Of a DNA stretch of 64,000 bases, positions 5,841-47,732 are shown piece after piece. The stretch covers positions 1 through 64,000 of the forward strand of contig NZ_RHOK01000009.1 in the NCBI RefSeq assembly GCF_003946175.1, in the 5' to 3' direction. The position numbers and the translations under genes were made by a program. Position 1 is the first letter of the stretch, and every line of letters starts with the position of its first letter. The notes beneath the pieces are model-generated. The model was not told the DNA's origin, searched no databases, and worked only from the letters and a program-made list of their open reading frames with translations. The stretch comes from Lacticaseibacillus suibinensis. GTDB lineage: Bacteria; Bacillota; Bacilli; Lactobacillales; Lactobacillaceae.

Positions 5841-5898
5841 TTTGGTCTAGTCCATTATCAGGCGTCGCGGGTAAAAAGTCAACCGGTCTAGACAAATT
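5841..5898 (-). promoter_or_regulatory. nagB promoter with two NagR/YvoA-type operators
   Basis: Minus-strand promoter: TTGACT (5882-5877), 17-base spacer, GATAAT (5859-5854). A near-palindrome TTTGGTCTAGTCCATT (5841-5856) overlaps the -10 and AACCGGTCTAGACAAATT (5881-5898) overlaps the -35. Both resemble the dre sites bound by GntR/HutC-type NagR (YvoA, DasR), with a GGTCTAGAC core. Placement on both promoter elements suggests repression relieved by amino-sugar phosphates. The regulator gene is not in the window. Confidence 0.7.
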
Positions 5899-5975
5899 AT
5901 TTAATCATATTTTGGTTCCTTGAGCCCCACCTGTCGCCGTCTAAACCGCTTTCATCATTACTGGTCAAAAAGGAA

Positions 5976-6746
5976 CTATTGCCGCTTCACATATAAATTC
6001 CGCAATTGCTTCAGGTCGCTGGCACTCAACTGGAGCACCGCTTGAACATACTGCGGCCAGTCGCCGTATTCGCTGGTGATGAAGTCACGCACCGCCACAT
6101 AGCACTGCGCTTCAGCCGCATGGGCATTGAGCTTGTCCACCAACGCGCTAGCACCAGGCTTCAGAGCCGCTGCCACCACCTTAGAAGCAGCGAAAAAGAC
6201 GGTATTAGTGAGCAGGTAATCTTGGCGAATGGTGGCTTCCGGCACGCCAAGCGCCCCTTCGATCATCATCGCCGCCATTCCGGTACGGTCTTTCCCTGCC
6301 GCGCAGTGAAACAGCACCGACTCGCCGGGTTGATCATTGGCCAGCAGCAGCGCGAACACCTGCTGAAAGACCTTGATGGCATGCGAATCCGTTAACATCC
6401 GCAAATACGCCTCGGCCATCGGGTCAATGCGGCGATCAGTCATTGCGGCTAAATGTGCGTTAAACGCTGGGTTCGCACTCACGTCGGCAAACGGGTACAC
6501 CGACAACTGTTGCCAGTTCACCCCTGGCGCCACGACATCGGTGCTGCCAGCGACTTCATTATCCGTGCGCAAGTCGATCACCGTTTTCAGGCCATAGTCT
6601 TGGAGCCACTCAGCCTCCTTGACCGTTAGCTGCGACAAGGAGCCTGACCGCAAGAGCTTGTGCGGCGCAATCACGCCGCCGGCCGCCGGATACTCGCCAA
6701 GTTCGCGCAGGTTTACCGCATTTTTAAGGGGTAATAATCGTTCCAT
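5976..6746 (-). CDS. Tyrosine-protein phosphatase (Y_phosphatase3 type)
   Basis: A 256-residue protein tyrosine/serine phosphatase of the family common in lactobacilli and listeria. The P-loop HCAAGKDRTG (about residues 147-156) supplies the catalytic Cys and Arg. The N-terminal NLRELGEYPAAGG segment and LRSGSLSQLT, followed by VIDLRTDNE, are typical of this family. It can act on phosphotyrosine or phosphoinositide-like substrates; the true substrate is unknown. The start at 6746 has GGGAGG upstream. It stands alone, back to back with prs, with no signal peptide, so it is probably cytoplasmic. Confidence 0.85.
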   Translation of the reverse strand: MERLLPLKNAVNLRELGEYPAAGGVIAPHKLLRSGSLSQLTVKEAEWLQDYGLKTVIDLRTDNEVAGSTDVVAPGVNWQQLSVYPFADVSANPAFNAHLAAMTDRRIDPMAEAYLRMLTDSHAIKVFQQVFALLLANDQPGESVLFHCAAGKDRTGMAAMMIEGALGVPEATIRQDYLLTNTVFFAASKVVAAALKPGASALVDKLNAHAAEAQCYVAVRDFITSEYGDWPQYVQAVLQLSASDLKQLRNLYVKRQ

Positions 6747-6868
6747 CTCCGCCGCACCTCCCAGTTCTCATTATAGTGAATTATCGCTCCAGCGGCCGGG
6801 TTTGTGCTTGCGCGGCCGATTTTTTCGCTGTTGCTCGCCTAAAAATAGCCAAGTCAAGCAAACTTGCG

Positions 6869-12406: not shown

Positions 12407-12409
12407 AAC

Positions 12410-23108: not shown

Positions 23109-23888
23109 TCACTTGTTTTGCAACATGAAATGCCGCAGCGTTTGATTGAACGCTTCCGGGACTTCAGCCATCACATCGTGGCCGCAGTTTTGAATCATCA
23201 CTTCGCGCACCTGGGCATTGCGCCGCATCAGCCACTGGCCGTAGCCATTGTTGAAATACGGCGTTTGCGCCGCCGTGGCGAACAGCACCGGGGCCGTTTC
23301 GCTACTGATCTGCGCGCGCCAGTCCGCTTGGAAATGATCCGCCAGCAGCGCCACGCCTTGCTCACGGTCGAAGGGCTGGCGGCTTTCGGCGCGAATAAAC
23401 GCATCCATCACCGCCGGCACCATGCCGTGCAAGGTTTCGTGGCCTTGGCGAGGCCGGTGCAACTGCACTGGCGCAGTGCGGGCCGTTAAGCCGCGAAAGC
23501 CGAATTGCCACTGATGATCGTTGAGCATCTTCGGCGACTGATCCACCACCAGTACCCCGCTCACTGGCACGTCAGGATGCCGCTGGCGAAACGCCCAAAT
23601 GACGCTAGCACCCATCGAATGGCCCACCAGCAGTGGCCGCTGCAGCTGCAGTTGCGAAAGCACCGCCGCTAGGTCATCAGCCAGTTCCGCTAGCGAGGTC
23701 GCCACCGGTCCAGTGGATTCGCCCTGCCCGCGGTAATCAAAGCATACGGTTTGCGCGCGGCGACTAAACGCCGCCACTTGGGCAGTCCAGATTTCCTTGT
23801 AGCTGCCAAAACCGTTGACGAACACGATGGGCCGGCCGCTACCTTCAACGGCCACGGCTAACTGGGCGTCAGGAACCGCAATTTGCAT
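23109..23888 (-). CDS. Alpha/beta hydrolase encoded inside the malonate decarboxylase operon
   Basis: A 259-residue cytoplasmic hydrolase. The nucleophile elbow is VGHSMGAS (Ser near 93), the oxyanion region FVNGFGSYKEIW, and the catalytic His lies in QNCGHDVMAEVPE near the end. DYRGQGES and VLVVDQSPKML are typical of esterase/peroxidase-like members. It has no signal peptide. Its ATG overlaps the mdcG stop by one base (TAATG), and mdcB follows within 11 bases, so it is a full member of the operon. Such a gene is not part of the classical mdc set. It could hydrolyse a malonyl or acyl ester or thioester, but that is inference from position. Confidence 0.8.
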   Translation of the reverse strand: MQIAVPDAQLAVAVEGSGRPIVFVNGFGSYKEIWTAQVAAFSRRAQTVCFDYRGQGESTGPVATSLAELADDLAAVLSQLQLQRPLLVGHSMGASVIWAFRQRHPDVPVSGVLVVDQSPKMLNDHQWQFGFRGLTARTAPVQLHRPRQGHETLHGMVPAVMDAFIRAESRQPFDREQGVALLADHFQADWRAQISSETAPVLFATAAQTPYFNNGYGQWLMRRNAQVREVMIQNCGHDVMAEVPEAFNQTLRHFMLQNK

Positions 23889-24523
23889 TAGGCTTCACCT
23901 TCAAAATGCCACGGATCCGCGGTTAACTGCGGGCCGTTGGCGGTTTTCATCATCACCTGGGCAGCGCGGTGCTGGGCGTACTCTTCCAGCGAAAAGCCAT
24001 CTTGGCCGTGCACCACTTGGATGTCCGCATGCGCGCCGGCAATGGCTTGCAGGCGCTGGATCAGCGTTTGCGCCGCCGCTACCGGCAAGGCCTTAGCGGG
24101 CCTAGTCATGATGACATCGACATCTGAGACTGGCCGCGCCATTTTCAGGCCCGTGACCAGCTCGAATTGCAGGCTGCCGCCGACACCCCAATCGAAGCCT
24201 TGCAGCAAAGGCTCTAAAGCGGCAAGCTTTTGGAACGCCGGTAATTGCGCCCGCGCCGGGTCCAACTGCGGCAGCAGCGCCAAGGCCTGCTGCGGGGTCA
24301 CGGTCGCCGCCACCTGAGCAGAGGCCGCGAAGGCTGCAAAGCGCTGCGCCTTTTGATAGCCACGAAGGCCGACCGGAATCCGGTCGGCCTGGGGGCCCCG
24401 CCGTACGATCACGTATGGCGATTCGGTTAACATGGCCACTGCCCAATCAGGCAGTGGGCTCGCTGCCGTCAAAGCATCAGCTGCTTTGAGCCGCACGAGC
24501 GTATGCGGAGTGAAACTTACCAT
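23888..24523 (-). CDS. mdcG: Phosphoribosyl-dephospho-CoA transferase, ACP holo-forming
   Basis: MdcG-type nucleotidyltransferase that attaches the phosphoribosyl-dephospho-CoA group to the Ser of MdcC. Visible features: N-terminal FTPHTLVRLK, VGLRGYQKAQRFAAF near residue 50, and the GVGGSLQFELVTGL followed by SDVDVIM that supplies the metal-binding Asp pair of the nucleotidyltransferase fold. Length 211 is near normal. The start overlaps the end of mdcDE by seven bases. With mdcB it forms the prosthetic-group branch of the operon. Confidence 0.85.
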   Translation of the reverse strand: MVSFTPHTLVRLKAADALTAASPLPDWAVAMLTESPYVIVRRGPQADRIPVGLRGYQKAQRFAAFAASAQVAATVTPQQALALLPQLDPARAQLPAFQKLAALEPLLQGFDWGVGGSLQFELVTGLKMARPVSDVDVIMTRPAKALPVAAAQTLIQRLQAIAGAHADIQVVHGQDGFSLEEYAQHRAAQVMMKTANGPQLTADPWHFEGEA

Positions 24524-26193
24524 TGCTGATCCATCAAGGCGCGAACTTTGTTGGTGGCTTTGCGGCCGCCGCCTTCGCCGTTCACGGCAATGTCGTTGGT
24601 GTAACGGAAGGACAGGTCAGCAGGTGCGTCTTCCAGGCTCTTGAACGCATCGTCCAAGGCGGCCTTCACAGTAGCAACAGCATTGGCATCAGAATCGTAG
24701 CCTTTGACGCCTTTGATCAGGTTGTACAAAGAGCCAAGCTTTTGATAGTTTTCAATGTCGTAAGCCATCGCTGGGACATGCTTGGTGGCTTCTTCCAATT
24801 CAGCAATCGTCCGCTGGGTAATGCGGGCACTGGAAGCCTTGCTCATCGCCTGAATGGTAATGTCGAGGTCATCCAAGGCGACCAGCCGGTTGGATTGCAA
24901 ACCTTGAGCGAGGAAGCCACCGGAAACGGCATCCCCTGGAATGAAGGAAACCACCTTGTGACCGGCCTGGCGTGCCCGCGCATAGGCACTGGCAGCGGAA
25001 GCCAGCGACATGTGAATCCCAATCAGCTCTTCCTTGTAGCCATAAGCCTGACTCGGCACATCGACGACAATCACGATTGGCGTCTTCTCGGCCGCTGGCT
25101 TGTCCGCATCAGCGGCGATCAAATCGTTGATGACACTGGCAACCGTGTAGCCTTCTTGCAGGCCCACTTCACCATGGCGTACCCGTGGGAAGCGATTGTC
25201 TTCAGCTGGCACAATGGCAACATATTCGCGGCCATCGGCTTGGGCGTGCAAGACCGTTGGCACATCACTGTGGGCGTTTTTGATGCCGGTCAACAGTTCA
25301 AACCAGTTGCGGCCACGAGACTTGGTGCCAGGCTGGCTGCCGCTAGTGGCTGGGGCCAGGTGATGCGGCTTGGCAACGACTTGCTTGAACAGCTGATCGT
25401 AACCGGCGATATCCAGGGGCTGGCTTGGGTCGAGTTGATCCAGCAAGCTCAGGTAGAAATCGCCACGCTGATCACGGTGCGAATCCTTGTTCTCATCAAT
25501 CGCTGCCGTGATGGCAGTGCGGAAGGCGTTCACGTCATCATCAACGACTTCATCGATGATGCCGGTGGCCTGGCGCTGCTTAGTGCCCAGCGTGTTCCAG
25601 ATCAGGTTCTTATCGGAAGAATCCCATTCCTTAACGCCGGCTTCCTGCTCGATGACTTCAGGACCGTTCAAGCCGATACGGGCTTTGTCGGTGCCGATGA
25701 CATAAGACAGCAAGGCGTTGGTGATGGACATCCCACCAAAAGAGCCAACGCGCCCTGGCACGAGGCCAATAACTGGCACGTACTGTTTCAAGGCAATGAC
25801 CATGTTGTGGATTTCGGAAATTGACAGCAAGCCGTAGTTGGCTTCCTGCAGGCGCACGCCACCGGTATCCAAGATGATGATCGGATATTCCTTGTGGCCG
25901 GCTTTGTTGTCGGCTAATACATGCTCCAGGGCGGAGACAATCTTCGCGCCGGAGACTTCACCAATCCCGCCGCCTTGGAAGGCGCCTTCGATGGCGATGA
26001 TGACCGTGTCTTTTTGGTTTAATTGCCCTTTCATCACCACAATGCCGTCATCGGCTTCAGGCACGATGTTTTGGGGCTCGAGGTGCGGGGAAATCATGTT
26101 ATCAAAGGGCCCAATCAATTCACGGGTGCTACCCGCATCAAGTAAGGCTTCTGCGCGCTGGCGAGCGTGCAATTCAACAAAACTATTGCTCAT
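24517..26193 (-). CDS. mdcDE: Malonate decarboxylase beta and gamma subunits fused in one protein
   Basis: A 558-residue fusion. Residues about 1-270 match the beta subunit MdcD (malonyl-S-ACP decarboxylase; IIAIEGAFQGGGIGEVSGAK, VGSFGGMSITNALLSYVIGT with the oxyanion-forming Gly pairs). Residues about 300-555 match the gamma subunit MdcE (VVDVPSQAYGYKEELIGIH, GDAVSGGFLAQGLQ). In Klebsiella, Malonomonas and Pseudomonas these are two genes. The linker (about 270-300) holds HHLAPATSGSQPG. The complex releases CO2 from malonyl-S-ACP and regenerates acetyl-S-ACP. It overlaps mdcC by 11 bases. No frameshift is seen, so this is a true fusion. Confidence 0.9.
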   Translation of the reverse strand: MSNSFVELHARQRAEALLDAGSTRELIGPFDNMISPHLEPQNIVPEADDGIVVMKGQLNQKDTVIIAIEGAFQGGGIGEVSGAKIVSALEHVLADNKAGHKEYPIIILDTGGVRLQEANYGLLSISEIHNMVIALKQYVPVIGLVPGRVGSFGGMSITNALLSYVIGTDKARIGLNGPEVIEQEAGVKEWDSSDKNLIWNTLGTKQRQATGIIDEVVDDDVNAFRTAITAAIDENKDSHRDQRGDFYLSLLDQLDPSQPLDIAGYDQLFKQVVAKPHHLAPATSGSQPGTKSRGRNWFELLTGIKNAHSDVPTVLHAQADGREYVAIVPAEDNRFPRVRHGEVGLQEGYTVASVINDLIAADADKPAAEKTPIVIVVDVPSQAYGYKEELIGIHMSLASAASAYARARQAGHKVVSFIPGDAVSGGFLAQGLQSNRLVALDDLDITIQAMSKASSARITQRTIAELEEATKHVPAMAYDIENYQKLGSLYNLIKGVKGYDSDANAVATVKAALDDAFKSLEDAPADLSFRYTNDIAVNGEGGGRKATNKVRALMDQQW

Positions 26194-28155: not shown

Positions 28156-29069
28156 TAATAAGTCCCTCTTTCCCATTTGGTTAACAAAAATGCGGCATCC
28201 GATACGCTCATCTGATCAAGATTGACTTGATGCAGATCGCCGAACTTCTGCCCCAGCACCTTCCGGAACGGCCGGCCAGGGGAAAAGTTCACGATGCTAT
28301 CGGGTTCATAATCGTGTGCCACGCCCATCATCGCTTCAAAATACACGGGATGAGCCAAGTTGTTGCTGAGATCCTCGCGCACCGGTGCCACTTGGCGCAC
28401 GGCGCGGCCGGAGTAATTCGTCAGGTAAATGCCGGCCGGTTTTTGCAGGGTCACATCCGCCATGGCAGCGGCCAGCTGGGTGCCGACTTTCGCCATCAAC
28501 GGTGAATGTGACGGCACCGGCACTTTCAGCCGCCGCGCCAGCACCGCGCCGTTCGCCTTGGCGAGGGTCACGACCTGATCGATTGCAGCCAGCTCGCCGG
28601 ACAACGCGGTTTGGTCTTCGGCGTTTTGATTGGAAGCATATACCGGGTGCTCCGGCCGGTTGACCTGGGCGACCAAGGCTTCCACCTCAGCGCGACTCAA
28701 GCCAACCACCACACCCATCCCGTAACCTTGGGGATAGGCGCCTTGCATCAGCTCCGCGCGGCGTTTGACCACCCGGAACAAATCATCCTGCGCTAAGCTG
28801 CCGATGGCATAAGCCGCGGCGAACACGCCGAGGCTATGGCCAGCCACCAAATGCGGCTTCAAACCGGCGGCTTGCATGGCGTTGACTTGCGCCACTTGCA
28901 ACAATTCGATGCCGACTTGCAGCTGCACCGAGTCTTGGTACGCCGAATCGGTATCCAACAACTTCAAACCCAGCAAGTCCTCCACGTGGCCGCGCAAAGT
29001 CTTGTCCACGTTTTGGAGCATACCAGCGTTTTGGCCCCCTTGACCGGGGAAAATCCACAAAGAATTCAC
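28155..29069 (-). CDS. mdcH: Malonyl-CoA:ACP transacylase of malonate decarboxylase
   Basis: First gene of the operon. MdcH charges the apo-cycle by moving malonyl from malonyl-CoA to the ACP so that decarboxylation yields acetyl-S-ACP. Motifs of the FabD family are clear: FPGQGGQNAGM at the N-terminus, nucleophile Ser in AGHSLGVFAA (about 78), Arg in VVKRRAELMQ, and His in VPVPSHSPLM (about 200). AGAAGG precedes the ATG. It is 304 residues, as expected. Confidence 0.9.
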   Translation of the reverse strand: MNSLWIFPGQGGQNAGMLQNVDKTLRGHVEDLLGLKLLDTDSAYQDSVQLQVGIELLQVAQVNAMQAAGLKPHLVAGHSLGVFAAAYAIGSLAQDDLFRVVKRRAELMQGAYPQGYGMGVVVGLSRAEVEALVAQVNRPEHPVYASNQNAEDQTALSGELAAIDQVVTLAKANGAVLARRLKVPVPSHSPLMAKVGTQLAAAMADVTLQKPAGIYLTNYSGRAVRQVAPVREDLSNNLAHPVYFEAMMGVAHDYEPDSIVNFSPGRPFRKVLGQKFGDLHQVNLDQMSVSDAAFLLTKWERGTY

Positions 29070-29137
29070 GATTGACCTTCTCTCTATCTGATCCGATCGC
29101 TCTCACATTGCCACTTTATGCCCTTCAGATAGCGTTG

Positions 29138-29175
29138 TATAATGATTTTATCTTATATGTATAACAATCGGTTAT
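29138..29175. promoter_or_regulatory. mdc/LysR divergent control region with LysR box
   Basis: ATAACAATCGGTTAT (29161-29175) is a perfect ATAAC-N5-GTTAT inverted repeat with the T-N11-A layout of LysR boxes. TATAAT at 29138-29143 serves the LysR gene. On the minus strand TTGTTA inside the box and a TATAC-like hexamer about 18 bases on could form the mdcH promoter, a placement expected for an activator. Confidence 0.6.
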
Positions 29176-29191
29176 GAATAGGAGGCACCGC

Positions 29192-30067
29192 ATGAACCTC
29201 GCTCAGCTTCAAGGTTTCGTCTACACGGCGCAAACTGGCAGCATCACTCAAGGCGCGCGCCAGGCCTTTATTAGCCAGCCAGCGATGACCAAAATGATTC
29301 AGGAATTGGAAAAAGAACTCGGTGTGGCGCTGTTCGACCGGGTGGGCCGCGGCATTCAAATCAACGATGCCGGCCGTTTGTTTCTCAACTATGTGGAATC
29401 CGGCCTCGATCAAATCGAGGAAGGGATTGAAGCCGTCGCTAAACCCAACACGCAGCAGCGGCCGATTCGCCTGTTGGTGGAAGTCGCGTCGGCGCTGATT
29501 CCAGACATCATCAAAACGATCCACGCCATTTACCCCAACGCCCCGATTCAGCTGACCCAGCGCATTACCGCCGTCAACGAAACCCGGGAATTCGACTTCA
29601 CGATTTCCACTCGTCAGCCGCGCCGTGACCGACGTTCAGTGCCGCTGTTGAACGAGGAAATCTTGATTGGCAGTGCCAATCCCGATCTGGCCGCTTCCAC
29701 TTTTATCACGCCGAATGCGTTGGTGGGCCAGCCGATCGTGTCACTGGGCTATCACACGCCGCTGCGCGATACCTTGGATCAGTATTTTGACCAACGGAAC
29801 CTGCGCCTGAATTTCCAGTACGAATCCGACGACCCGGCCAGTATCCGCGCGATGCTGGCCTCAGGGATCGGCGTCGGCTTCATCCCCTCGGTCACTTGGG
29901 CCGAAACCGGCAAGCAGCTGCATCTGGCCCGCATTACACCGGATCCACCTTTTCGCACGATTTATTTGACAGAAGGCCAGCCTAAAGAAGACGTGCGCAC
30001 CCGCAAAGTCGCAAACGCATTAGTGGCGCTATTTGTCGCCGCCCGCGCCCAGGCCCTGAAGGTCTAA
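29192..30067 (+). CDS. LysR-family regulator, probably of the mdc operon
   Basis: A 291-residue LysR-type regulator. The N-terminal winged helix reads MNLAQLQGFVYTAQTGSITQ, with recognition helix SQPAMTKMIQELEKELG and LFDRVGRGIQINDAGR. The rest is a two-lobed effector-binding domain (about 90-285; FTISTRQPRRDRRS, SGIGVGFIPSVTW). I start it at 29192 because AGGAGG lies seven bases upstream. It is divergent from mdcH with a LysR box between them, the usual arrangement of MdcR/MdcY-type control by malonate. Effector identity is inferred. Confidence 0.85.
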   Translation: MNLAQLQGFVYTAQTGSITQGARQAFISQPAMTKMIQELEKELGVALFDRVGRGIQINDAGRLFLNYVESGLDQIEEGIEAVAKPNTQQRPIRLLVEVASALIPDIIKTIHAIYPNAPIQLTQRITAVNETREFDFTISTRQPRRDRRSVPLLNEEILIGSANPDLAASTFITPNALVGQPIVSLGYHTPLRDTLDQYFDQRNLRLNFQYESDDPASIRAMLASGIGVGFIPSVTWAETGKQLHLARITPDPPFRTIYLTEGQPKEDVRTRKVANALVALFVAARAQALKV

Positions 30068-37639: not shown

Positions 37640-40600
37640 TTAGTTTTGCTTGCGCCGGGAGAACCCAAGGCCCCCGAGTAAGCTGAGTAGTGCAACGCCA
37701 AGGGCTGCCAGCGGGGTGGTCGACTCGCCAGTCTTCGGTAGCGTCTTCTTGCCGGCGGCTTTGGTGATCACCGCCACTTTTTGTTGCTGGGATGCTTTTT
37801 TATCCTGTTTCAACTTAGCACCTTGGTTGTCAGTTGGCGCAGGTTTGGTGCCTTGATCATGCTTGCCGGTTGGTTCACTCTTACCTGCAGGCTTAAGGGC
37901 GGCCAGCGCGGCTTGCAATGCGGTGGTGGCCGCATCGACTTGCGCCGCCGTGGCATTTGGATTAGCCGCTACCGCTTGGGCAGCCGCCAAGGCATCAGCC
38001 ACGCCGACATAGCTTTGGGCGGTGTAATGAGCCGCATCCTTAGCCGCTTTTTCGCCCTGGGCAATCGCCGCTTGCAAGGCGGTCTTATCAACCACCACTG
38101 GCTTAGCCTTGAGGCCAGCCAGCGCCGCGGTCAGCTGAATCGCGGCACCATCAATGGTGTCCTGCGTGGCGGCATCATCGCCAACCACTGCGGCCGCATT
38201 GCTGATGGCATCGGCCAGCGCTTGCTGAGAGTCCACGGTGTAGACACTGACGTCGACCCCTTGCGCAAGCTTCAATGACTCGGCCAAAACAGCTTTGTCA
38301 ATGTGCGAGGCCTGGGTGAGGCCTTTGACGGCATCAATCAGGCTTTGTTGCGCCATGTCGATTGCCGCTTGGTCAGCCGCGCTGTCGTCAACGACGGTTT
38401 GGCCTTGCGTCAAGGCATCGGCAACGGCTTGCCAGCTAGCAGCGGTGTAATGCTCCGGATTCAGGGCCTTGGCGGTGGCGATGCTTTGCCGTAAGCCAGC
38501 CTTGGCGGGATCGAGGTAAGTCAATTCAACAGCCTCTGGGGCGGCTGGCAAGGCTTCCTCGCTGATTTGGTTAACCAGCATGGGATCCGTCAGTGCCAGC
38601 TTCAGCGCATCCCCGGACAGTGGCTTCTTCGCAGTTAAAGTAAAGGTCGCCAGATCCAAGTCGCCGCTTAAGCGGTCGGCTTCGCCTTTGTTCGAGAAGA
38701 TCAGATAGAGATCTTCGCTGCCGTCTGAGTGCAGCCGCGGCTTGGAGAAGTTGATCATGTTCTTCGTCGCGTCGGTAGCTTGAACGTTGCCAAAGGTCAG
38801 TTCCTTGCTGGTGTACGGAATGTGCACGGACAGGGCGTTAACGCCGGTCAGATCATGGCCTTGCAAAGTCACGGTAATCGTATCACCTGGCTGGTAACTG
38901 GTCTTATCTGCCTTGAGGGTCAACGTCCCCGTTGGCACATGGCCATCCCAAGTTGTAACGGCGGTGCCGAGCTTGGTTTCGACATAGTTGATGTCAAAGG
39001 CATCGATGGTGCCGTTTTGGTTCATGTCACCATTTTCAACATAGCCATCAAAGTCGGAATCCTTGCCATGCGTCAGGCCGGCGTAGTTCCGCAGAGAGGT
39101 TTCGTCGTCATCGGTCCAGGTGCCGTCGTTGGTCAAGTCCCCAGGCCAGTGCGGCTTGGTGCCTTCCTTCTTGAACAGCAGGAATTCTTGACCCGAAACG
39201 AATTGGCCGACCGACATCCCTTTTGGCACGGTGAAGCGAACAAAGTAGGCTTTCAAGCCGCTGAGATCAACGGTCTTTTCTTGGCCGTTGGCGGCCCAGC
39301 CACGGGCCTGAATCGGAGCGCTCCAGTGCACGCCGTCGATGGAAACTGAGATATCCAGGCCCTTGATGGTCCCGTTACCGCCATCCACGCGCGGTACGTA
39401 GGTGAAATGGTCCAATTCGTACACATTGCCCAGTTCTGCCAGAATGGAGAGCGGTGTAGCGTCTTGCTTTTCATCCGGTCCGGTGAACCAATTGGTATGC
39501 GCCGTGGTGTTCAAACTCAGGTCGAAGAGCAATTCTGGGCCCATGTCTTCCTGCCAGATATTGGTGCCAGTGATATTGGAGTCCGTGCTCCGAACCGAAA
39601 TGCCCTTGATGGCGTCTTGGAGTGGATCATCGTCAGTGCTCATGGTCTGCACATCGGTCCACGCCCCGGTGCCATCAGCCGTAATCGCCTGAATTTGCAC
39701 GGTGTGGTCACTCTTCACCAGCAAGCCATCCAGGATAAAGCTGGTGCCTTGCACGTTAGCATGGAGCACTCCGTCAAGCTTCAGGTTATAGCCGGTGGCG
39801 TTTGGCGCCGCATCCCAAGTCATGCCGATTTGCCGAGCATCGGTGGTGTCGGCTTGCTGGGTCAGATTAGTGACGGCTGGCACGGCATCATCTTGGGCCG
39901 GCAGCGCATTGACTGGGGCGGCGGTGGTATCAACGCCGTCAACCGTCAGCACAATGCCATTTTGGGTGACATCGGTGGCGCCTAACTTCACGCGCAGGAA
40001 GGCTTGCTCGATGCCGGTGCCAATCCCCTTCAGGTAGTCATTGATCAGGTAAGCCTGGTCATAGAAGTACACGTTCGTGCCGGCGTTGAAGGCTTCTAAG
40101 CTATCCACCGCGGTGAGGGTGACGGTTTTGCCGCCAACCGTAGCGGTGACGCTGGCTGGTGCCGTCTTGCTGCGAATATCAAATTCGGTCGTGCGATCGG
40201 TGACCATATTGGCATAACTGCCGGTCATCGGATCAACGGTAACGGTGAGCTTGGTGCCTTGCAGGTCAGAGCTGATGGTGGTCTTGCTGGACTGGCCATT
40301 CAGGTACTCCTTGGAAATCCCATCATCCTCGTAGTTCGTCGTGGTGGTCTTACCGTTAGCGTAAATTTGGAATTGCCGCTGGCTGAGATCCATTTTGTCT
40401 GGCGTGTTATGCGCAGGCGTGGTGGCGATGATGGCACCGGCTTTGACGAAAATTGGCAGCTTCCAAATCGGGGCGTCAAAGTTATTAATGACCTGACCGC
40501 CTTGGTATTCCTTACCGGTGTAGTAGTCAATCCAGATTTGGTTGGCATCTGGCAGGTAAATGCCATTGCGCACGTCATTGCCTTGCGCGTCGGCGTTAGT

Positions 40601-42841
40601 GTCCTGGTAAACTGGTGCCACCAGGAAGTCGTCGCCCCACATGTACTCGTATTTCACCAAATCCGTGTAGGTTTCTGGCAGATTTGGATAGTCGAGGAAC
40701 AGCGCGCGCACCATTGGCTTGCCATCGAAGGTCGATTGCGCCGCTGCCGTGTAGATGTACGGCATCAGCATCGACTTTTGCTTCAGATAAGCACGGTTGA
40801 TGTTGGTGGTCGCTTCATCAAAGACAAATGGATTCTTCGGGTTGCTGCCCCAGCCATCCATGTTGAGTTCGATTGGGGTGAAGGTCTTCCACTGGAAGTC
40901 GCGGATGTTGATAATCGGGTTCTTACCGCCGAAAATCCCATCCAAGTCAGATCCGACATTCGGCTGGCCGGATAAGCCTTCGCCGATGTACGTTGGAATG
41001 TGGAACCGAATGTATTCCCATTCGCCGCCAGTTTGGTCGCCATCCCAGATACCCGCATAGTGCTGGGTGCCAGCCCAGCCGTTCAAAGTGATGATGAAGG
41101 GCCGAATACTGTCGCCGTTCACTTGTTCCATCATATCGGTGGCGGTTTCGATGCCATCAAGCCCGAAGGAGTAGCCAGGACCCACCCAAGCCACGTCGGT
41201 CTTCAGCGCCACGACCCCGGCAGCGACTTCAGCGGCGAAATCGCGGTCCTTATTGGTCGGGTTATCGGGATCAACCGGCTTCAGATTTTGCTGGGTCCAC
41301 AGGCCAACTTGAATACCACGCTCGTTGGCGTACTGGATGAATTCCTTCAAGTTTTCGATGTTGCCAGCCAGGGTATCGGTTTGGCCGTAGCCGGCACCAT
41401 AGCCGTCATTCGGCAGGAACCAGCCCAGTGGCATGTCATGCGCGATGTATTCATCGATTACTTCACGCGCGGAGAATTGGTAGTTATCCTTTTCCCCGTT
41501 CAAGGATTCCAGCGTGCCGGTTTGGCCAGCAGGCACCTTGTCTGGTTCGTATTCCTTGTAGGTCTTGCCATCTGGGAACTTAATGCCGCCATACGTGCCT
41601 TCTGGAACTTCGACCCAGATATCGCGGTTATAAGCGTTCAAATGCGCTTCATAAAAGGCGTAATGTGGCATCAAAGCCGGCAGGCCGGTGAGCGTCTGGT
41701 AATCGTGAATCAAGGCGTACGCCGTGTCATCGAAGAAGTAAACCGCATCAAAGCGATCTTCTTCATGATTGGCGGTGATTTCGCCATTATTCGCGGTGTC
41801 AAAATTGTAGGTCCCTGGCTTGAAGGTGTTGCGCACCACGCCGTAACCCGCAGTGGACCAGTAGAACGGATTAGGTGACGCTACCCCGCCATCAACCCAG
41901 TCGTTGGTCTTGAGAATCTTGATTTCCTTGCCCTTCATGGTGAATTCACCATTTTGGGTGCCGCCGCCGAAGTACTGGCTGCCAGCGGCGTCCTTCAGAT
42001 ATTGCGTCGACCCCCCGGCCGTCACTTCCAAAGGCTTGCTTTCTGCCAGTACAATCTTGTTGTTATGCAGCACCGACATCAACCCAGTGGCCTTGGCGAA
42101 CTGAATTTGAATCGCATCAGTGCCGATGGTCCAGCCGGCGTCAGTGGTGGTCAAGGTCGAGGCGTCGAAGGCCGCCTTGTCGTAGTCATCTAAGGCCTGC
42201 GGGAAAATCTTGGCGTTGAGCCCTTCCTTGGACTGCGCCGGGTCGCCGTACTCACCGCTTGGATCAACATAATAGCGGAACATCTTATCAGTGAGCACAC
42301 TGACCTGCGCCTTTTGCCCGTTTTGATAGGTGACTTCGTAGACGTTGGTTTGCTTCTCGACGTTGGTGATTGGATTAGCCACCGTGTCATCGCTGACAGC
42401 ATCGTCTGCGCTTTGGTCATCAGCCGCTGGTTGGTCAGCGGCTTGCTTAGCTGCTTGATCTGCCGTTTGGTCTGCCGTTTGGTCAATGGCGGCATCAGCG
42501 GCCGGCTTTGCCTCTTGCTCTACCCCAGGGGCCGGATCCGCCTTAACGTCTGCAGCAGCCGCCGACTCCCCAGCCGGTGCTGCTTCTGCTGTTGCTTGCT
42601 CTGCGGCCGGTGCTTCAACCTGCTTACCCGTAGCGGTTGTGGCATCGGCGGTTTGATCAGTTTGCGGCTGGTCAGCTTGTGCCTGCGTGCCTTGAACCGC
42701 AGCTTCCTCCTTGGCTGCTGGTTCCTGCGTTGCCGCGTGAACGTGATACCCACTTAGTCCTGAGACTGTTAAGAACGAAAGCACTGCCGTACTGTACAGC
42801 AGGCCTTTGAACTTGAAAGTGGTGGACTTCCCATGTGCCAT
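37640..42841 (-). CDS. Wall-anchored GH31 glycosidase, probable alpha-N-acetylgalactosaminidase
   Basis: A 1733-residue exported enzyme. The start at 42841 (MAHGKSTTFKFKG) has AAAAGGAGGAAA upstream. Order: signal peptide to HVHAA (about 39), Glu/Ala/Gln linker, GH31 N-domain and catalytic barrel (about 160-900), Fn3-like segment, F5/8 C (CBM32-like) domain with NTTAHTNWFTG, a dockerin-like piece (GDLTNDGTWTDDDE, DMNQNGTIDAFDINY), a cohesin-like beta domain, three FIVAR repeats, and LPKTGES sorting signal. Asp549 in LKTDVAWVGPG is the likely nucleophile and Asp632 in GSDLDGIFGG the likely acid/base. CBM32, dockerin-like and FIVAR parts recall the enterococcal GH31 alpha-GalNAcases acting on mucin Tn antigen; alpha-glucosidase remains possible. 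Confidence 0.85.
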   Translation of the reverse strand: MAHGKSTTFKFKGLLYSTAVLSFLTVSGLSGYHVHAATQEPAAKEEAAVQGTQAQADQPQTDQTADATTATGKQVEAPAAEQATAEAAPAGESAAAADVKADPAPGVEQEAKPAADAAIDQTADQTADQAAKQAADQPAADDQSADDAVSDDTVANPITNVEKQTNVYEVTYQNGQKAQVSVLTDKMFRYYVDPSGEYGDPAQSKEGLNAKIFPQALDDYDKAAFDASTLTTTDAGWTIGTDAIQIQFAKATGLMSVLHNNKIVLAESKPLEVTAGGSTQYLKDAAGSQYFGGGTQNGEFTMKGKEIKILKTNDWVDGGVASPNPFYWSTAGYGVVRNTFKPGTYNFDTANNGEITANHEEDRFDAVYFFDDTAYALIHDYQTLTGLPALMPHYAFYEAHLNAYNRDIWVEVPEGTYGGIKFPDGKTYKEYEPDKVPAGQTGTLESLNGEKDNYQFSAREVIDEYIAHDMPLGWFLPNDGYGAGYGQTDTLAGNIENLKEFIQYANERGIQVGLWTQQNLKPVDPDNPTNKDRDFAAEVAAGVVALKTDVAWVGPGYSFGLDGIETATDMMEQVNGDSIRPFIITLNGWAGTQHYAGIWDGDQTGGEWEYIRFHIPTYIGEGLSGQPNVGSDLDGIFGGKNPIINIRDFQWKTFTPIELNMDGWGSNPKNPFVFDEATTNINRAYLKQKSMLMPYIYTAAAQSTFDGKPMVRALFLDYPNLPETYTDLVKYEYMWGDDFLVAPVYQDTNADAQGNDVRNGIYLPDANQIWIDYYTGKEYQGGQVINNFDAPIWKLPIFVKAGAIIATTPAHNTPDKMDLSQRQFQIYANGKTTTTNYEDDGISKEYLNGQSSKTTISSDLQGTKLTVTVDPMTGSYANMVTDRTTEFDIRSKTAPASVTATVGGKTVTLTAVDSLEAFNAGTNVYFYDQAYLINDYLKGIGTGIEQAFLRVKLGATDVTQNGIVLTVDGVDTTAAPVNALPAQDDAVPAVTNLTQQADTTDARQIGMTWDAAPNATGYNLKLDGVLHANVQGTSFILDGLLVKSDHTVQIQAITADGTGAWTDVQTMSTDDDPLQDAIKGISVRSTDSNITGTNIWQEDMGPELLFDLSLNTTAHTNWFTGPDEKQDATPLSILAELGNVYELDHFTYVPRVDGGNGTIKGLDISVSIDGVHWSAPIQARGWAANGQEKTVDLSGLKAYFVRFTVPKGMSVGQFVSGQEFLLFKKEGTKPHWPGDLTNDGTWTDDDETSLRNYAGLTHGKDSDFDGYVENGDMNQNGTIDAFDINYVETKLGTAVTTWDGHVPTGTLTLKADKTSYQPGDTITVTLQGHDLTGVNALSVHIPYTSKELTFGNVQATDATKNMINFSKPRLHSDGSEDLYLIFSNKGEADRLSGDLDLATFTLTAKKPLSGDALKLALTDPMLVNQISEEALPAAPEAVELTYLDPAKAGLRQSIATAKALNPEHYTAASWQAVADALTQGQTVVDDSAADQAAIDMAQQSLIDAVKGLTQASHIDKAVLAESLKLAQGVDVSVYTVDSQQALADAISNAAAVVGDDAATQDTIDGAAIQLTAALAGLKAKPVVVDKTALQAAIAQGEKAAKDAAHYTAQSYVGVADALAAAQAVAANPNATAAQVDAATTALQAALAALKPAGKSEPTGKHDQGTKPAPTDNQGAKLKQDKKASQQQKVAVITKAAGKKTLPKTGESTTPLAALGVALLSLLGGLGFSRRKQN

Positions 42842-43424
42842 ACTCAGTTTCCTCCTTTTGGTGCCTGGCTCGTAATTCGCCCGTGAGCCGGTTATCTCAG
42901 ACATTGATACCCCCACTCCCCAGTAGTGGTACCAACCACCGTGAGTGTATCCGGTTTCAAGACTGGCCGCAAGCGGATCCAGTGGGTTCCAGGGTGGTTC
43001 AATCGCGCTAAAAATTTGTCCCCCTTGCTTGCACCTAGCAACAAATATTTTATTTCTAAGAACGATTTTTTTGGTTTTTGAATATTTGACCGAATTTGCT
43101 TGCATCAACCGGTCTTTTAGGGCGGTAAACGCCCGATTGGTAGGTACGATTAACCCGGAAATCTTTTTTAAACCGAGCCACAATACTCATTATTTTCACG
43201 TTTTTAACCACACCATCGGCGCCACTGTACATTTTAAAAAATGAGTCCTTTCACCTTTTTGGCAATGGTCTAATCGATTTCGCCAATTTTCACGAATTGG
43301 GTTTTTAAGCCCGGATTCAGCCCTATTAGACCGGCGTTTGCCGTTTCCAACCTCTAACCACTTTTGTACATACCAATAGTGAACGATGCCTGACCTGCAA
43401 ACAACCTGCCCCTTTGCAGGCACC
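42842..43424 (-). promoter_or_regulatory. Long GH31 upstream region with repeated GntR-type half palindromes
   Basis: No gene is supported in these 580 bases. dre-like motifs recur: ATTGGTATGTACAAAA (minus strand, 43377-43362), ATTGGTAGGTACGATT (43136-43151), AATGGTCTAATCGATT (43264-43279), and weaker AACCGGTCTTTTAGG (43107-43121) and CGCCGGTCTAATAGGG (minus, 43336-43321). The first is identical over 16 bases to one upstream of PL8. If the promoter lies near 43360, the leader exceeds 450 bases and could hold regulatory RNA. No convincing -35/-10 pair was found. Confidence 0.45.
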
Positions 43425-43464
43425 AAAAAGCACCGTTCACCTGCGATTCACAGGGAACGGTGCC
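43425..43464 (-). terminator. Terminator of the PL8 gene
   Basis: GCACCGTTC, CTG and CAG, GAACGGTGC pair on the minus strand and are followed by TTTTTGG, about 30 bases after the stop codon. Confidence 0.8.
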
Positions 43465-43492
43465 GGTTTAACTCACTGTGGTCCTAAACTAA

Positions 43493-46400
43493 TCACGCGC
43501 GGTGCTTGCGCCAGCTCAGCGCCACTGCGGCTAACAACGCAACCCCAAGCACGCTTAACGCGGCAAAGGTCACTTCGCCGGTACTTGGCAGACTTTGATG
43601 CTTGCCGGTTTGCGGCTTCGCATCGTGGTTCGGTTTGGCGTTCGGCGTTGGTTTTGGCGCCGGCGTTGGATTCGGCGCTGGTTCTGGTTCTGGCTTTGGT
43701 TCCGGTTCCGGTTCTGGTGCCGGTTCCGGATCTGGCGTTACGGCGACCAGGGCCTTCATCGCAGCGTTCACCTTAGCCGTGGCGGCATCCACGGCCGTTT
43801 GCGTGGCGTCGCTGGTCAAGGCTTTGGCCTCAGTGATGGCAGCCTGCAACGCTGCCCAGCTAGCCTTGGTGTAGGCTTTTTCGTCATACTTACCTGCTGC
43901 TGCCAGTGCCGCTTCCAGCGCAGAGGTATCCGCGACTTTAGCCAAACCTTTGATGGCTTCATTCAGCGCCTTGGTGGCGACATCCACTGCGGCCTGAGTG
44001 GCTTCAGGATCAGCCGCAACGGCTTGGGCAGAGACCCGCACTTTCTTCAAAGCTTGCCAGGTGCTTGGCGTGTAGTCGGCTTCCTTAAGCTTGTCGGCCG
44101 CCGCTAAGGCATTGGTCAAGGCTTCTTTACCTGCCACTTTGACCAAATCAGCGATGGCAGTGGTCAGGTTTTGCACCGCAACATCGACATCGGACTGCGC
44201 AGCATACTGGTCATCCACCAGTGCTTCTGCCTGATCGAGGGCCGTTTGCACTTTGGCAAAGCTGGTTGGCGTGTAATCGGCCGCGGCCAGCGTCTTGGCC
44301 TGCGCAATCACTTTTTGCAGAGCAGTTTTGTCGACTGGCACTGCTAATTGCACGGTGACGGTTTGACTCGCCCCTGCCAGGCCCGTGGTGTCAAAATGCA
44401 ACTGGTTGCCTTCTGCCGTGAAGGCGCCGGCAGCCTTGGTCGCGATTGACACCGGATGGTTAAAGGTGAAGTTCACCGTGGCGCCGGTTTGCCGCGGTTC
44501 GGCGGCGGTTAATTGATAACGGTTGTGCCCCAGGTCCTTGATGACAACGGCAGCGGTGTTATCAATTGAAACGAGGTCCGCTAGCTGGTCGGCCTTGGTC
44601 CAAACATTCGCCAGGATTTCATCCTTGGTTTGAATGGCCTGCAGTTGGTTGCTGTTGGCCAGCACCTTGTAGCTTGGCGTTTTCGCCAACGCAGCGATTT
44701 TGGCATCGGTAGCGCCAGGCACGGTCACGTATTCGTAACTACCATTGTCAACGTTTTGGCCGTGCATCGCGGCCAGGGTCAGATAGGTTTTAGAGTAAAC
44801 CGTATCAGATGGGAAGTACCCGTTGATCTCTTTATACGAGCCTTCGCGCGTGGCTTGGCTGATGGCCACTTGGTCATTGTGCGGGGCAATGATATAGCCG
44901 ACGTTGTTTTTCGGGTCCGCCGCGTTGAGGTTGGCCCACTGGCTGACCGTCTTTTGACTAGCAAAAGGCTGGCCATCAACTGTGATTTTTGTGGTGGCAG
45001 GATCGAATTGCCGCTGGTCGACGATGGTTTCGATGTCGGCCTTGGTGCTGCCGGTGATGTTAGCACCGAGGTTAACGATTTGCCCGTCAAGCAGGAACCA
45101 AGACTTCATCGCCTTCAGATTTTGGCCTTCGTTCACCTTGTTTAGCGCCATGCCGATGCTGGCGGTGTGGTGATCGGTGGCCCCACCCACCCAGGCTTGT
45201 GGACTACGCGAAGAGGACTTTTCACCGATGGTCAATTCAGTGGTATCCACCGTGGTCCCAGGCAAGCGATATGGGTCGACGGTTGGCCAGTAGCCTTCGC
45301 CAAATTGATCTAGGTCGTTGTTGTAGAGATAAACCATGCCGTCAGCGCTGTGCCAGGCTTTACCGTTTTCGGTGTTGCCATATTCGAAGTTGGCGATGCG
45401 CTTGGAGTACATGGCAATCCCAACGGCATAATCGGCAGTTTTTTGCAAAACGCGGTCCATCGAGCCGTAGACATTCAGTGAAGCCACATCGGCTGGCTGC
45501 GCGGAGGCGTTAGCCAGGGCGGTTTTCAGGCCGGTGATGGCGGCATAGTCGCGGGGATTGTTGAAGTAGTTGTAGCGATTGCCCACTTGTGCCACCCAAG
45601 TCGCCACGGCATGATAGATTTTGGCCTTCAGCGGGGCCGGCGTTGCGTCGGCGATTAAGGTCAAGTTTGCCAGAGTTTCCTTCCCGGTTTCCAGCTCAGT
45701 GGTTTCAGGGTTAGTGCCAGGCGCCCGGGAAATACTCCGCCCGGAAACCATCGATGGCATCCGCCCGTTGACCATCAGCTGCAGATACCCCTTATCCAGC
45801 AGGTTGAAGACATTGGTAAACTGGCTTTCGGCAATTGTCCAAGGCGTGCCAACCAAAATCGACGAGACGCGCGCAATCCCTTTGATCATTTCGTTGCCGT
45901 AGGAGCCGTTGTATGGGAAGAAGGTGTGCTGCACGAAGGAACCATCAGCATAAATCCCATCTTTAGCGGTTACCAACCCCATGGCTTTAGGCAGGTTTTG
46001 TTGGACCAGCGCCACGCGGCTGTCATCTTCCAGCAACAAGCCACTAGCCAACACGGAAATCGAAATATCTGTCAGGTTCGCGCCGGTGGCGGTGTAGCTT
46101 GGCCACTGAATGTTAGGATCCTTGCAGTAACCCAGCAGGGGCTGGACGAATTTCACCAAAGTCGCGTGATCTTTTGCGTTCAAGTCGTTATACAGCAGCA
46201 TCAACGTGTCATCGAGCTGCTGCGCAGAGCCGATTTGCCAATCCCACCAGTTGCCCTTGGAATAAGTACCGTTATATTGCTTCTCCGTGATCATAAAGTT
46301 GATTGCATCGATAATAGCATCGTAAACTGCCTGATCATGGTATTGCTTGCTGAGTGGGTTGTAATAACCCAGCGTCAGGAGCTTGATGTTGGTAAAGGTG

Positions 46401-47401
46401 GTGGTGTAGTCCGCCGAAATGGTATCCGCTGGCTTCAAGGCCCACACGCGGTCGCGGTCGGCGCTGCGATCCATTGTCTCCCACAAGGTTTGGCTCTGGT
46501 TCGCCAGACTGGTGAGGTAGGCCTTTACATTCGCGTCACTTAGGTCCGGGGTTTCGGCGATCAAACGGTCGCGCCAGCGCTGACGCATTTGCACGTACTC
46601 GGCGCGCGCCGCGGCAACGGTGACTTCAGCCTTTGCGCTCACATTGGTGTTGGCCGCTGCTGCGGTGATGGTGGTTTTGCCGGCTTTGAGCCCGGTGACT
46701 TGCCCCTTCGCATCAACCGTTGCCACGCTAGGATCGCTGCTGGTCCAAGCGATGGCATCTGCTTTCGGCGTCATATCGCTAGGGGTAGCGGTGTATTTGA
46801 ACTGCGTGGTGTTGCCGACGCTCACTGTTTTGGTCGTCGCATCTAAGGTGAGGCCGGTCAGCGTTTGCGCTTTGGCAAAAGCCTTGATTTCATTGATACT
46901 AGCACCGTACGTTTGCTTGTTGGTGTGAAGCCATTGTTTTTCTTGGTGGAACTTGATGTAACGCACCTGTTGTTGGGTCAGAGTGATTTTGCGATCAGCC
47001 TTGACGCCGTTGCTGGCCGGCAAAGCCTTGTTGACGGTATAAACCGATTTGAACTGCTGATCGTCCTTCGCCACCAGCACTTCATAAGCCGGGGCTTCCG
47101 CAAAAAAGTCCAGATCGATTTCACTAACCGGCTTGGCTGCCCCTAAGTCCACCGTCAGCCACTGATCATCAGTCTTACCCGCCGACCAGCGGGTACCTTC
47201 ATCGCCGTCAACCGCCTTTTCCCCGCTGAACTTGGGGTAAACCCAGCTGCCATCATCATTTTTATCGCCTTCGACGCCAGAAAATGTCACTGGCCGGTTC
47301 AGGGCGAGGTTCAAGTTGTCATCGGCCTGCACATGCATCGCGCCGGTGGTCACCAATGCTAATGCTAAGACGCTGGCACTAATCAAATGTCGCTTCTTCA
47401 T
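43493..47401 (-). CDS. Wall-anchored polysaccharide lyase family 8 (hyaluronate/chondroitin lyase type)
   Basis: A 1302-residue exported lyase. The start at 47401 has GAGGAGGAG upstream. Order: signal peptide to HVQA (about 24), discoidin-like carbohydrate-binding domain (about 30-180), BIG2 domain (about 185-270), PL8 alpha/alpha-toroid and beta-sandwich domains (about 270-1000), three FIVAR repeats, a Pro-Glu/Pro-Lys repeat spacer, and LPSTGE sorting signal. Asn442 (GANLTD), His492 and Tyr501 (QHTFFPYNGSYG) have the same spacing as the Asn/His/Tyr triad of pneumococcal hyaluronate lyase. The reaction is beta-elimination of uronic-acid polymers such as hyaluronan or chondroitin; xanthan-like substrates are also known in PL8. 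Control likely involves the GntR-type sites upstream. Confidence 0.9.
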   Translation of the reverse strand: MKKRHLISASVLALALVTTGAMHVQADDNLNLALNRPVTFSGVEGDKNDDGSWVYPKFSGEKAVDGDEGTRWSAGKTDDQWLTVDLGAAKPVSEIDLDFFAEAPAYEVLVAKDDQQFKSVYTVNKALPASNGVKADRKITLTQQQVRYIKFHQEKQWLHTNKQTYGASINEIKAFAKAQTLTGLTLDATTKTVSVGNTTQFKYTATPSDMTPKADAIAWTSSDPSVATVDAKGQVTGLKAGKTTITAAAANTNVSAKAEVTVAAARAEYVQMRQRWRDRLIAETPDLSDANVKAYLTSLANQSQTLWETMDRSADRDRVWALKPADTISADYTTTFTNIKLLTLGYYNPLSKQYHDQAVYDAIIDAINFMITEKQYNGTYSKGNWWDWQIGSAQQLDDTLMLLYNDLNAKDHATLVKFVQPLLGYCKDPNIQWPSYTATGANLTDISISVLASGLLLEDDSRVALVQQNLPKAMGLVTAKDGIYADGSFVQHTFFPYNGSYGNEMIKGIARVSSILVGTPWTIAESQFTNVFNLLDKGYLQLMVNGRMPSMVSGRSISRAPGTNPETTELETGKETLANLTLIADATPAPLKAKIYHAVATWVAQVGNRYNYFNNPRDYAAITGLKTALANASAQPADVASLNVYGSMDRVLQKTADYAVGIAMYSKRIANFEYGNTENGKAWHSADGMVYLYNNDLDQFGEGYWPTVDPYRLPGTTVDTTELTIGEKSSSRSPQAWVGGATDHHTASIGMALNKVNEGQNLKAMKSWFLLDGQIVNLGANITGSTKADIETIVDQRQFDPATTKITVDGQPFASQKTVSQWANLNAADPKNNVGYIIAPHNDQVAISQATREGSYKEINGYFPSDTVYSKTYLTLAAMHGQNVDNGSYEYVTVPGATDAKIAALAKTPSYKVLANSNQLQAIQTKDEILANVWTKADQLADLVSIDNTAAVVIKDLGHNRYQLTAAEPRQTGATVNFTFNHPVSIATKAAGAFTAEGNQLHFDTTGLAGASQTVTVQLAVPVDKTALQKVIAQAKTLAAADYTPTSFAKVQTALDQAEALVDDQYAAQSDVDVAVQNLTTAIADLVKVAGKEALTNALAAADKLKEADYTPSTWQALKKVRVSAQAVAADPEATQAAVDVATKALNEAIKGLAKVADTSALEAALAAAGKYDEKAYTKASWAALQAAITEAKALTSDATQTAVDAATAKVNAAMKALVAVTPDPEPAPEPEPEPKPEPEPAPNPTPAPKPTPNAKPNHDAKPQTGKHQSLPSTGEVTFAALSVLGVALLAAVALSWRKHRA

Positions 47402-47552
47402 TTTGCTCCTCCTCAGGTTCACTTTTTAGTCAATGCTGAACGGCCGGTCGTCGCCCACCGACCGCCGCTCAGTTGCCTTACTTAAAATTTTGACCAGCGT
47501 GAGCGTACCAAGGTGCGGCTGGAAGCGCAATCATTCATATCGCGCATTTGCC

Positions 47553-47732
47553 AGTGGTATACACCACCGGTGACCGCTATTCTGGGCCGGAAAATAAAAA
47601 TGCCCGGATTGGGCTTAAATTTTCCATACCAATAGATGCTCGACAAATCACAATCGCGTTTTTCCAAGCGGTAATCACTAGTTATTAGCGATATTGACAT
47701 TTTTAATCGGAATATTTTTGTACATACCAATT
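47553..47732 (-). promoter_or_regulatory. PL8 upstream region with three GntR-type operators
   Basis: Three palindromes of the GGTATA class: AGTGGTATACACCACC (47553-47568, arms GTGGT/ACCAC), ATTGGTATGGAAAATT (minus, 47633-47618) and ATTGGTATGTACAAAA (minus, 47732-47717). The last may overlap a TTGGTA -35, with an ATTAAA-like -10 17 bases on. They resemble NagR/YvoA (dre) sites and the nagB pair. The stretch 47402-47844 has no gene. Confidence 0.6.

Follow-up and report, generated by a model that had tools for sequence, protein, structure and literature searches.

Genes of the window and regulators of the genome

The 64,000 bp stretch of Lacticaseibacillus suibinensis DNA analyzed here (the window; contig NZ_RHOK01000009.1, positions 1-64,000, or C55:1-64000 of the 2.56 Mb genome G000) carries three minus-strand genes whose upstream regions are the subject of this analysis: nagB, encoding glucosamine-6-phosphate deaminase (bp 5073-5780; TIGR00502 score 252.2 bits, cut-off 236.9), a gene for a wall-anchored GH31 protein (bp 37640-42841) and a gene for a PL8 polysaccharide lyase (bp 43493-47401). 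A preliminary description of this DNA had proposed that palindromes upstream of all three are read by one GntR-type repressor sensing amino sugars. All of the strings that it listed are present in the sequence and their assignment to operators of the GntR/HutC type is well supported, but the results below point to sister repressors of this family rather than to a single one.

Sites, their conservation, regulator genes and enzyme families were computed for this genome and across a set of 30 Lacticaseibacillus genomes, with G000 counted. GntR-domain searches of G000 gave 20 matches (19 above cut-off), and 12 UTRA domains identify 12 HutC-type regulators; for the nine of these submitted to NCBIfam, no name above cut-off was returned. 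Two matrices were used. The NAG matrix was built from 39 unique 20-mers from nagB and nagR operators, with a leave-own-out version from which the three own-species 20-mers were removed and in which the sites of the near-identical sister species were otherwise retained. The AGA matrix was built from the operator sites of AgaR2-like regulators of the type found on contig C12. In total, 441,394 bases of the genome, overlaps counted, were scanned with the matrices, made up of the window, the DNA around the HutC regulators and segments covering every match to TGGTMTANACCA with at most one mismatch (listed genome-wide); this is mostly DNA picked around regulators and pattern matches and not a random sample. 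The pattern TGGTRCCRACCA had 132 matches in the genome, 100 of which were listed, compared to 80 for a control. Score thresholds and the half-site expression given below were set after the sequences had been seen, and the glmS and aldose epimerase labels come from reading N-terminal letters.

nagB and NagR

The likely start of nagB, assigned by reading, is the ATG at bp 5780 following GAGGAGGAAT and not the open reading frame (ORF) start at bp 5819; nagB matches in the other 29 genomes mostly start at ORF residues 7-14. The nagB promoter is TTGACT-17-GATAAT (-35, bp 5877-5882; -10, bp 5854-5859) and, as previously described, it carries two palindromes. TGGTCTAGTCCA (bp 5843-5854), which extends over the end of the -10, forms the center of a predicted proximal NagR-type operator (bp 5839-5858, minus strand; core TGGACTAGACCA on the gene strand; 18.7 bits with the leave-own-out NAG matrix), while CGGTCTAGACAA at bp 5884-5895 sits immediately upstream of the -35 in a predicted distal operator (bp 5880-5899, minus strand; 17.9 bits with the same matrix). 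At least one site with no more than two mismatches to TGGTCTAGACCA was found upstream of nagB in all 30 genomes and at least two were found in 23 of them, with a spacing of 21-23 or 41-45 bp (approximately two or four helical turns). Because matches to the 10-mer GGTCTAGACC alone, at most two mismatches allowed, are about as common in the window as expected by chance (19 matches, 14.1 expected) while the nagB sites are kept throughout the genus, it is conservation and not rarity that supports them.

The HutC-type GntR gene that the preliminary description had called for is nagR (C22:10387-11088), one of the 12 HutC regulators, which is unlinked to nagB and has an orthologue in each of the 30 genomes. 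NagR is a YvoA-type HutC regulator: among solved proteins, YvoA/NagR (2wv0, 6.4e-40) is the best match over the full length, although 3ddv, a 145-residue GntR-family entry, scores higher over the second half of NagR. A dre-like site (at most two mismatches, within 90 bp) lies upstream of nagR in 15 of 29 regions, one partial match having been left out. The 12 highest-scoring places in the leave-own-out NAG scan included nagR (21.0 bits), nagA (20.7), the two nagB sites, a MupG-like gene (18.5), two sites upstream of a response regulator gene (18.2 and 16.1) and an aldose-epimerase-like start (17.8), followed by intergenic sites of other kinds at 13.8 and 13.0 (the latter before a glmS-like start) and two places within ORFs of 322 aa and 332 aa (13.8 and 13.6, respectively). 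That nagA and the glmS-like gene were found even though neither was in the training set speaks for this matrix. In Lacticaseibacillus paracasei BL23, nagA and nagB are reported to be bound and repressed by NagR (PMC12791066), and this part of the system is therefore known biology in the genus. Given the conserved dre-type palindromes at its promoter, control of nagB by a NagR-type repressor is well supported.

Two of the high-scoring places were observed in other settings. The pair upstream of the response regulator gene (G000:C34:10980 and 11032) is 52 bp apart and lies between that gene and an ORF read as 6-phosphogluconate-dehydrogenase-like, and may connect NagR with a two-component system. 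The site at G000:C52:44397 is 40 bp upstream of the MupG-like gene, whose product is related in kind to the L. paracasei GH170 glycosidase ChbE.

The GH31 gene and the C12 regulator

The GH31 protein has Pfam GH31, F5/8, FIVAR and LPXTG matches, and its gene likely starts at the ATG at bp 42841, which is preceded by AAGGAGG. The start implied previously (TTG at bp 43183, the ORF start) is not conserved and was rejected because a stop interrupts the extended frame in the gene of the sister species; consequently, the distance from the GH31 sites first described to the gene downstream is approximately 295-540 bp. Along its length, the catalytic part of the protein matches 6m76, 7f7r and 7f7q (6m76 E-value: 1.4e-275; next entry: 1.2e-35), and two of these three are titled GH31 alpha-N-acetylgalactosaminidase. 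As a close relative of this enzyme, the GH31 protein probably answers to N-acetylgalactosamine (GalNAc) and not to NagR.

The strongest palindrome upstream of GH31 (bp 42925-42940) had been overlooked. It lies at the promoter TTGCGG-17-TACACT (-35, bp 42967-42972; -10, bp 42944-42949) within a predicted AgaR2/GnbR-type operator (bp 42923-42942, minus strand) whose core, TGGTTGGTACCA (bp 42927-42938), begins 5 bp after the -10. This operator scores 18.6 bits with the AGA matrix (19.1 leave-own-out) and is the best match in the window by 7.7 bits; the second-best, at 10.9 bits, is likewise upstream of GH31. The other GH31 sites fared unevenly. ATTGGTAGGTACGATT (bp 43136-43151, plus strand) is a weaker AgaR2-type site (10.9 bits with own sites in, 8.1 with them out) that is identical at 16 of 16 positions in the sister species, whereas AATGGTCTAATCGATT (bp 43264-43279, plus strand) is doubtful, with 13 of 16 positions identical and scores of 0.6 (NAG) and -17 (AGA). 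ATTGGTATGTACAAAA (bp 43362-43377, minus strand) is, as had been stated, an exact copy of a site upstream of PL8, with scores of 9.7 (NAG) and 8.5 (AGA). No dre-type operator was found at the GH31 promoter, and only this distal 16-mer, at approximately -520 to -540, reaches 9.7 bits with the NAG matrix.

The TGGTTGGTACCA 12-mer is also found directly upstream of a HutC regulator gene on contig C12, such that the operator of GH31 is the one in this regulator's own promoter. Among the matches listed, the exact 12-mer TGGTACCAACCA has three copies: C12:8607, C55:42927 and C52:94481 (inside an amidohydrolase ORF). The C12 regulator gene is followed by genes for a SIS-domain AgaS-like protein, sorbose/mannose-family phosphotransferase system (PTS) components B, C, D and A and a nagA-like amidohydrolase, the last of which has its own dre site. 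Its likeness to AgaR2/GnbR is drawn from this GalNAc-type neighborhood and from the motif; the best solved relatives of the protein are DasR and YvoA, and it shares 54 identities with NagR over 232 aligned columns. Regulators of this type are encoded by 22 genes in 21 of the 30 genomes, and a TGGT(T/A)GG(T/G)ACCA-type site occurs no more than 45 bp from the matched start in all 22. The operator is also conserved among GH31 homologues. Eight GH31 genes with at least 68% identity were identified, and seven were tested after the broken gene of genome G017 was left out (the start in G020 was placed by hand). An AGA site is located at -110 to -50 in five of the seven, six score at least 9.6 bits, and their summed AGA score is 85.9 compared to -14.6 (standard deviation 12.2) for shuffled sequences. 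All seven genomes with such a GH31 gene also have the regulator (P=0.057 by chance).

A riboswitch or T-box upstream of GH31 was considered and rejected following Rfam searches, in which only two tRNAs were found in the window at gathering level and a permissive search of bp 42800-43520 gave two matches far below gathering scores.

The PL8 promoter and the shared 16-mer

The PL8 protein contains Pfam Lyase_8 domains and its gene likely starts at the ATG at bp 47401 with AGGAGG; its best solved relatives are xanthan lyases, followed by hyaluronate and chondroitin AC lyases. A contig scan with PL8 as the query returned two loci. In the sister species (G025:C3:18001-38000), a second PL8 gene adjoins the first; its catalytic part shows 80% identity to the window query, and the window lacks this second gene.

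The PL8 promoter is TTGCGC-17-TACGCT (bp 47502-47530, minus strand), with a cre-like box over the -35. A TTGCGC-17-TAnnCT promoter with its -35 overlapping such a box is found in eight of ten PL8 upstream regions. The predicted proximal HutC-type operator (bp 47551-47570, minus strand; core TGGTGTATACCA at bp 47555-47566) is 24 bp upstream of the -35. It contains the previously described AGTGGTATACACCACC (bp 47553-47568), and the other two sites described there were also confirmed, both on the minus strand: a middle site, ATTGGTATGGAAAATT (bp 47618-47633; 2.7 bits with the NAG matrix), and a distal site, ATTGGTATGTACAAAA (bp 47716-47731; 7.6 bits). With 7.8 bits for the proximal site in the leave-own-out NAG matrix, the best PL8 sites do not score like the proven NagR members (13.0-21.0 bits). 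Position and conservation speak in favor of the sites. The promoters of the window gene and the second G025 gene are only 50% identical, but conserved blocks are evident between them at the three sites, at the cre-like box and at the -10. In seven of the eight homologues sharing the promoter (ten examined; post hoc expression), a TATACC- or TAGACC-like half-site precedes the -35 by 14-15 or 23-24 bp. The full palindrome is present in four promoters (the window, G025a, G025b and G017). The summed NAG score of the ten PL8 promoters is 40.5 compared to -7.0 (standard deviation 12.4) for shuffled sequences. Based on these comparisons, PL8 likely carries a HutC operator, and NagR is our best guess for its reader.

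ATTGGTATGTACAAAA has exactly two copies in the genome, upstream of PL8 and GH31. ATTGGTATGYACAA has six copies in the 30 genomes, five of which precede PL8 or GH31 of L. suibinensis and its sister species, compared to two for the reversed control; when up to three mismatches to the 16-mer are allowed, the counts (25 versus 17 for the reversed control) are near chance. Bacillus NagR is reported to accept asymmetric dre sites, one half having GG and the other TG (PMC4333415), and the 16-mer fits this pattern. It also has the core TGGTATGTAC in common with TGGTATGTACCG, which directly follows TATAAT in the promoter of another HutC regulator (C1:172838). The operon of this C1 regulator includes genes for a PTS EIIC component and a SASA-type esterase. 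A further HutC regulator, encoded close by on the same contig as the window (C55:69087), was considered as a master regulator and rejected, with no palindrome meeting the search pattern in the 220 bp upstream.

Proposed regulation and alternatives

The explanation that we consider probable is that these sites are operators of sister GntR/HutC repressors, divided between N-acetylglucosamine (GlcNAc) and GalNAc, so that each gene is controlled by its matching substrate. NagR would occupy both dre sites of the nagB promoter, blocking it, and would probably be released by glucosamine-6-phosphate or GlcNAc-6-phosphate. The wall-anchored GH31 alpha-N-acetylgalactosaminidase would be blocked by the AgaR2/GnbR-like repressor that heads the C12 PTS/agaS/nagA cluster; this protein would bind TGGTTGGTACCA downstream of the -10 and be released by a GalNAc-derived sugar phosphate. 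At PL8, a HutC operator upstream of the -35, most likely that of NagR, would act together with the cre-like box for CcpA. Surface attack would thus be coupled to the matching amino sugar pathway through at least two look-alike repressors. The looser network envisaged by the preliminary description, tying surface enzymes to intracellular amino sugar use, is retained in this form, with sister repressors and similar operators in place of a common one. Binding, effectors, the direction of control and the identity of the protein reading the PL8 sites and the shared 16-mer are what we infer from the DNA sequence.

Several observations weigh against this explanation. The ten PL8 promoters exceed shuffled sequences with the AGA matrix as well (-8.1 versus -35.5, standard deviation 13.4), which means that a HutC operator is better supported there than NagR specifically, and the PL8 NAG signal comes mainly from four of the ten promoters, two of them from the sister species. 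GH31 homologues likewise exceed shuffled sequences with the NAG matrix (17.8 versus -2.2, standard deviation 10.1); one homologue has no AGA site and another has it at -437. Nine of the 22 C12-type regulators are just 42-46% identical to that of L. suibinensis and may represent sister lineages, and the highest AGA match (20.0 bits) is elsewhere, inside an ORF at C52:94477. When the window is aligned with the sister species, 29% (GH31) and 32% (PL8) of the 16-column stretches are perfectly conserved, making conservation between these two alone weak evidence. Finally, simple repression does not usually involve an operator located upstream of the -35. It is conceivable, but we consider it unlikely, that a HutC protein at PL8 acts from an activator-like place, by DNA looping or by activation, with sister repressors sharing or competing for the distal 16-mer. 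This idea follows from the location of the operator, from positions approximately one helical turn apart among homologues and from the further sites approximately 65 and 163 bp upstream.

Control of nagB, PL8 and GH31 jointly by NagR alone, as first proposed, is not supported, and two or three sister repressors explain the data best. NagR reading all of the sites would account for the four places of at least 7 bits with the NAG matrix found upstream of GH31, PL8 and a GH101 gene, where 0.086 are expected from shuffled sequences, although this threshold is post hoc and the GH101 place lies in a terminator stem; the asymmetry of the 16-mer would also be tolerated by NagR as reported (PMC4333415). 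However, the best placed operator of GH31 has the motif of the other paralogue, and the PL8 and GH31 sites score only 7.6-9.7 bits with the NAG matrix, far below nagR, nagA, nagB and glmS (13.0-21.0). As 27 places in the scanned DNA score at least 9.5 bits and 52 score at least 7, several of them within unrelated ORFs, the PL8 and GH31 sites are indistinguishable from background by matrix score alone. This is the strongest result against a single NagR, which we regard as improbable. A matrix scan of the kind suggested in the preliminary description, run over the DNA named above, recovered nagR, nagA and nagB at high scores and left PL8 and GH31 at background level; a motif as frequent inside unrelated genes as in these promoters, named there as evidence to the contrary, was half borne out by the NAG counts.

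The low matrix scores are also consistent with the PL8 and GH31 boxes, except the proximal GH31 palindrome, being chance matches or sites of an unrelated factor, with PL8 under CcpA alone. Within the window the short pattern occurs about as often as expected by chance, the counts of the 16-mer come close to chance once three mismatches are allowed, and the cre-like box is the element found in the largest number of PL8 promoters. We find this, too, hard to credit: the exact 16-mer occurs only before PL8 and GH31, the three PL8 sites stand out between promoters that are half identical, and the half-site spacing is kept in seven of eight homologues. Somewhat more plausible, though still doubtful, is that a third HutC paralogue, either the C1 regulator or a ChbR-like protein, reads the shared 16-mer, leaving only the proximal sites to NagR and AgaR2. 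The match between the 16-mer and the C1 regulator promoter, and the PTS and acetylesterase genes of its operon, fit this alternative, as does ChbR, a GntR paralogue of L. paracasei reported to bind the nagB promoter weakly at a coincident motif (PMC12791066); against it, the case for C1 depends on one match in one genome.

Other features of the window and genome

The palindrome upstream of GH101 (bp 54146-54165; 8.6 bits with the NAG matrix) lies within a terminator-like stem of the preceding gene; it is retained in the sister species and absent before the GH101 gene of genome G001. GH101 was rejected as a NagR target because of the stem and of this absence. The C52:94477 AGA match is in an EF_0837-like amidohydrolase ORF, 49 bp upstream of a SelA-fold gene, in a gene group that also holds a MupG-like gene and another HutC regulator. 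A 20-mer, TTTTTGGTCTAGTCGTCAGG, is found near three contig starts (window bp 102-121, G000:C12:101 and G000:C46:101), with a nearly identical sequence at the interruption of the G017 GH31 gene, and is probably the end of an insertion element. Window bp 54680-62230 encode a group with three sortases, a MucBP-type protein and a SpaA-type pilin, and a malonate decarboxylase gene group at bp 23109-30067 adjoins a LysR-type regulator gene.

Comparison with known systems

Among the best-ranked matches in the open-access literature, no title or abstract described a PL8 or a GH31 alpha-N-acetylgalactosaminidase of lactobacilli as controlled by NagR or AgaR2. If the proposed regulation is correct, costly surface enzymes acting on mucin or glycosaminoglycans are coupled in a lactobacillus to the matching intracellular amino sugar pathway, and the division between GlcNAc and GalNAc repressors extends to the cell surface. 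The system would be suited to testing directly how paralogous HutC repressors whose operators are almost identical are kept apart, with TGGT-CTAG-ACCA operators on one side and TGGT-TGGT-ACCA operators on the other.

The NagR part resembles the NagR/dre regulons of Bacillus subtilis (YvoA/NagR), Streptococcus pneumoniae and L. paracasei BL23 in its YvoA-like HutC repressor and in the genes that have a dre site upstream, namely nagA, nagB, nagR and a glmS-like gene. Expression in S. pneumoniae is reported to rise when the dre sites AAATAGGTCTATACCATTTA (nagA) and AAATTGGTCTATACCATATA (nagB) are mutated (PMC5110562). The difference is that a wall-anchored PL8 lyase may be added to the regulon here, with weaker sites upstream of the -35. 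Control of extracellular enzymes by NagR is described for the chitinases of Bacillus thuringiensis, in which a dre site upstream of the pgi promoter is reported to increase expression approximately 1.3-fold (PMC6141813). The enzymes and genus differ from those considered here, and activation in that case is slight.

Dedicated regulation of a PL8-type enzyme can also involve a different class of protein: RegR is a regulator of the LacI type. In S. pneumoniae it is described as the hyaluronidase regulator (PMC3616900), and the likeness to the PL8 gene of the window lies in this dedicated control.

The GalNAc part resembles AgaR2 of Lactobacillales and GnbR of L. casei in that a HutC regulator gene is located beside an agaS-like gene, a mannose-family PTS and a nagA-like gene. 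Streptococcus suis AgaR2 is reported to bind TTGTGGTTATAACCAGTT, a motif described as GnbR-like (PMC4694137), and gnbREFGBCDA of L. casei BL23 is reported together with growth on GalNAc (PMC10629584). The S. pneumoniae AgaR operator, given as ATAATTAATATAACAACAAA (PMC5018945), is unlike TGGTTGGTACCA. In contrast to AgaR2 and GnbR, the core in L. suibinensis is TGGTTGGTACCA, and it is carried by a distant gene for a surface GH31 alpha-N-acetylgalactosaminidase.

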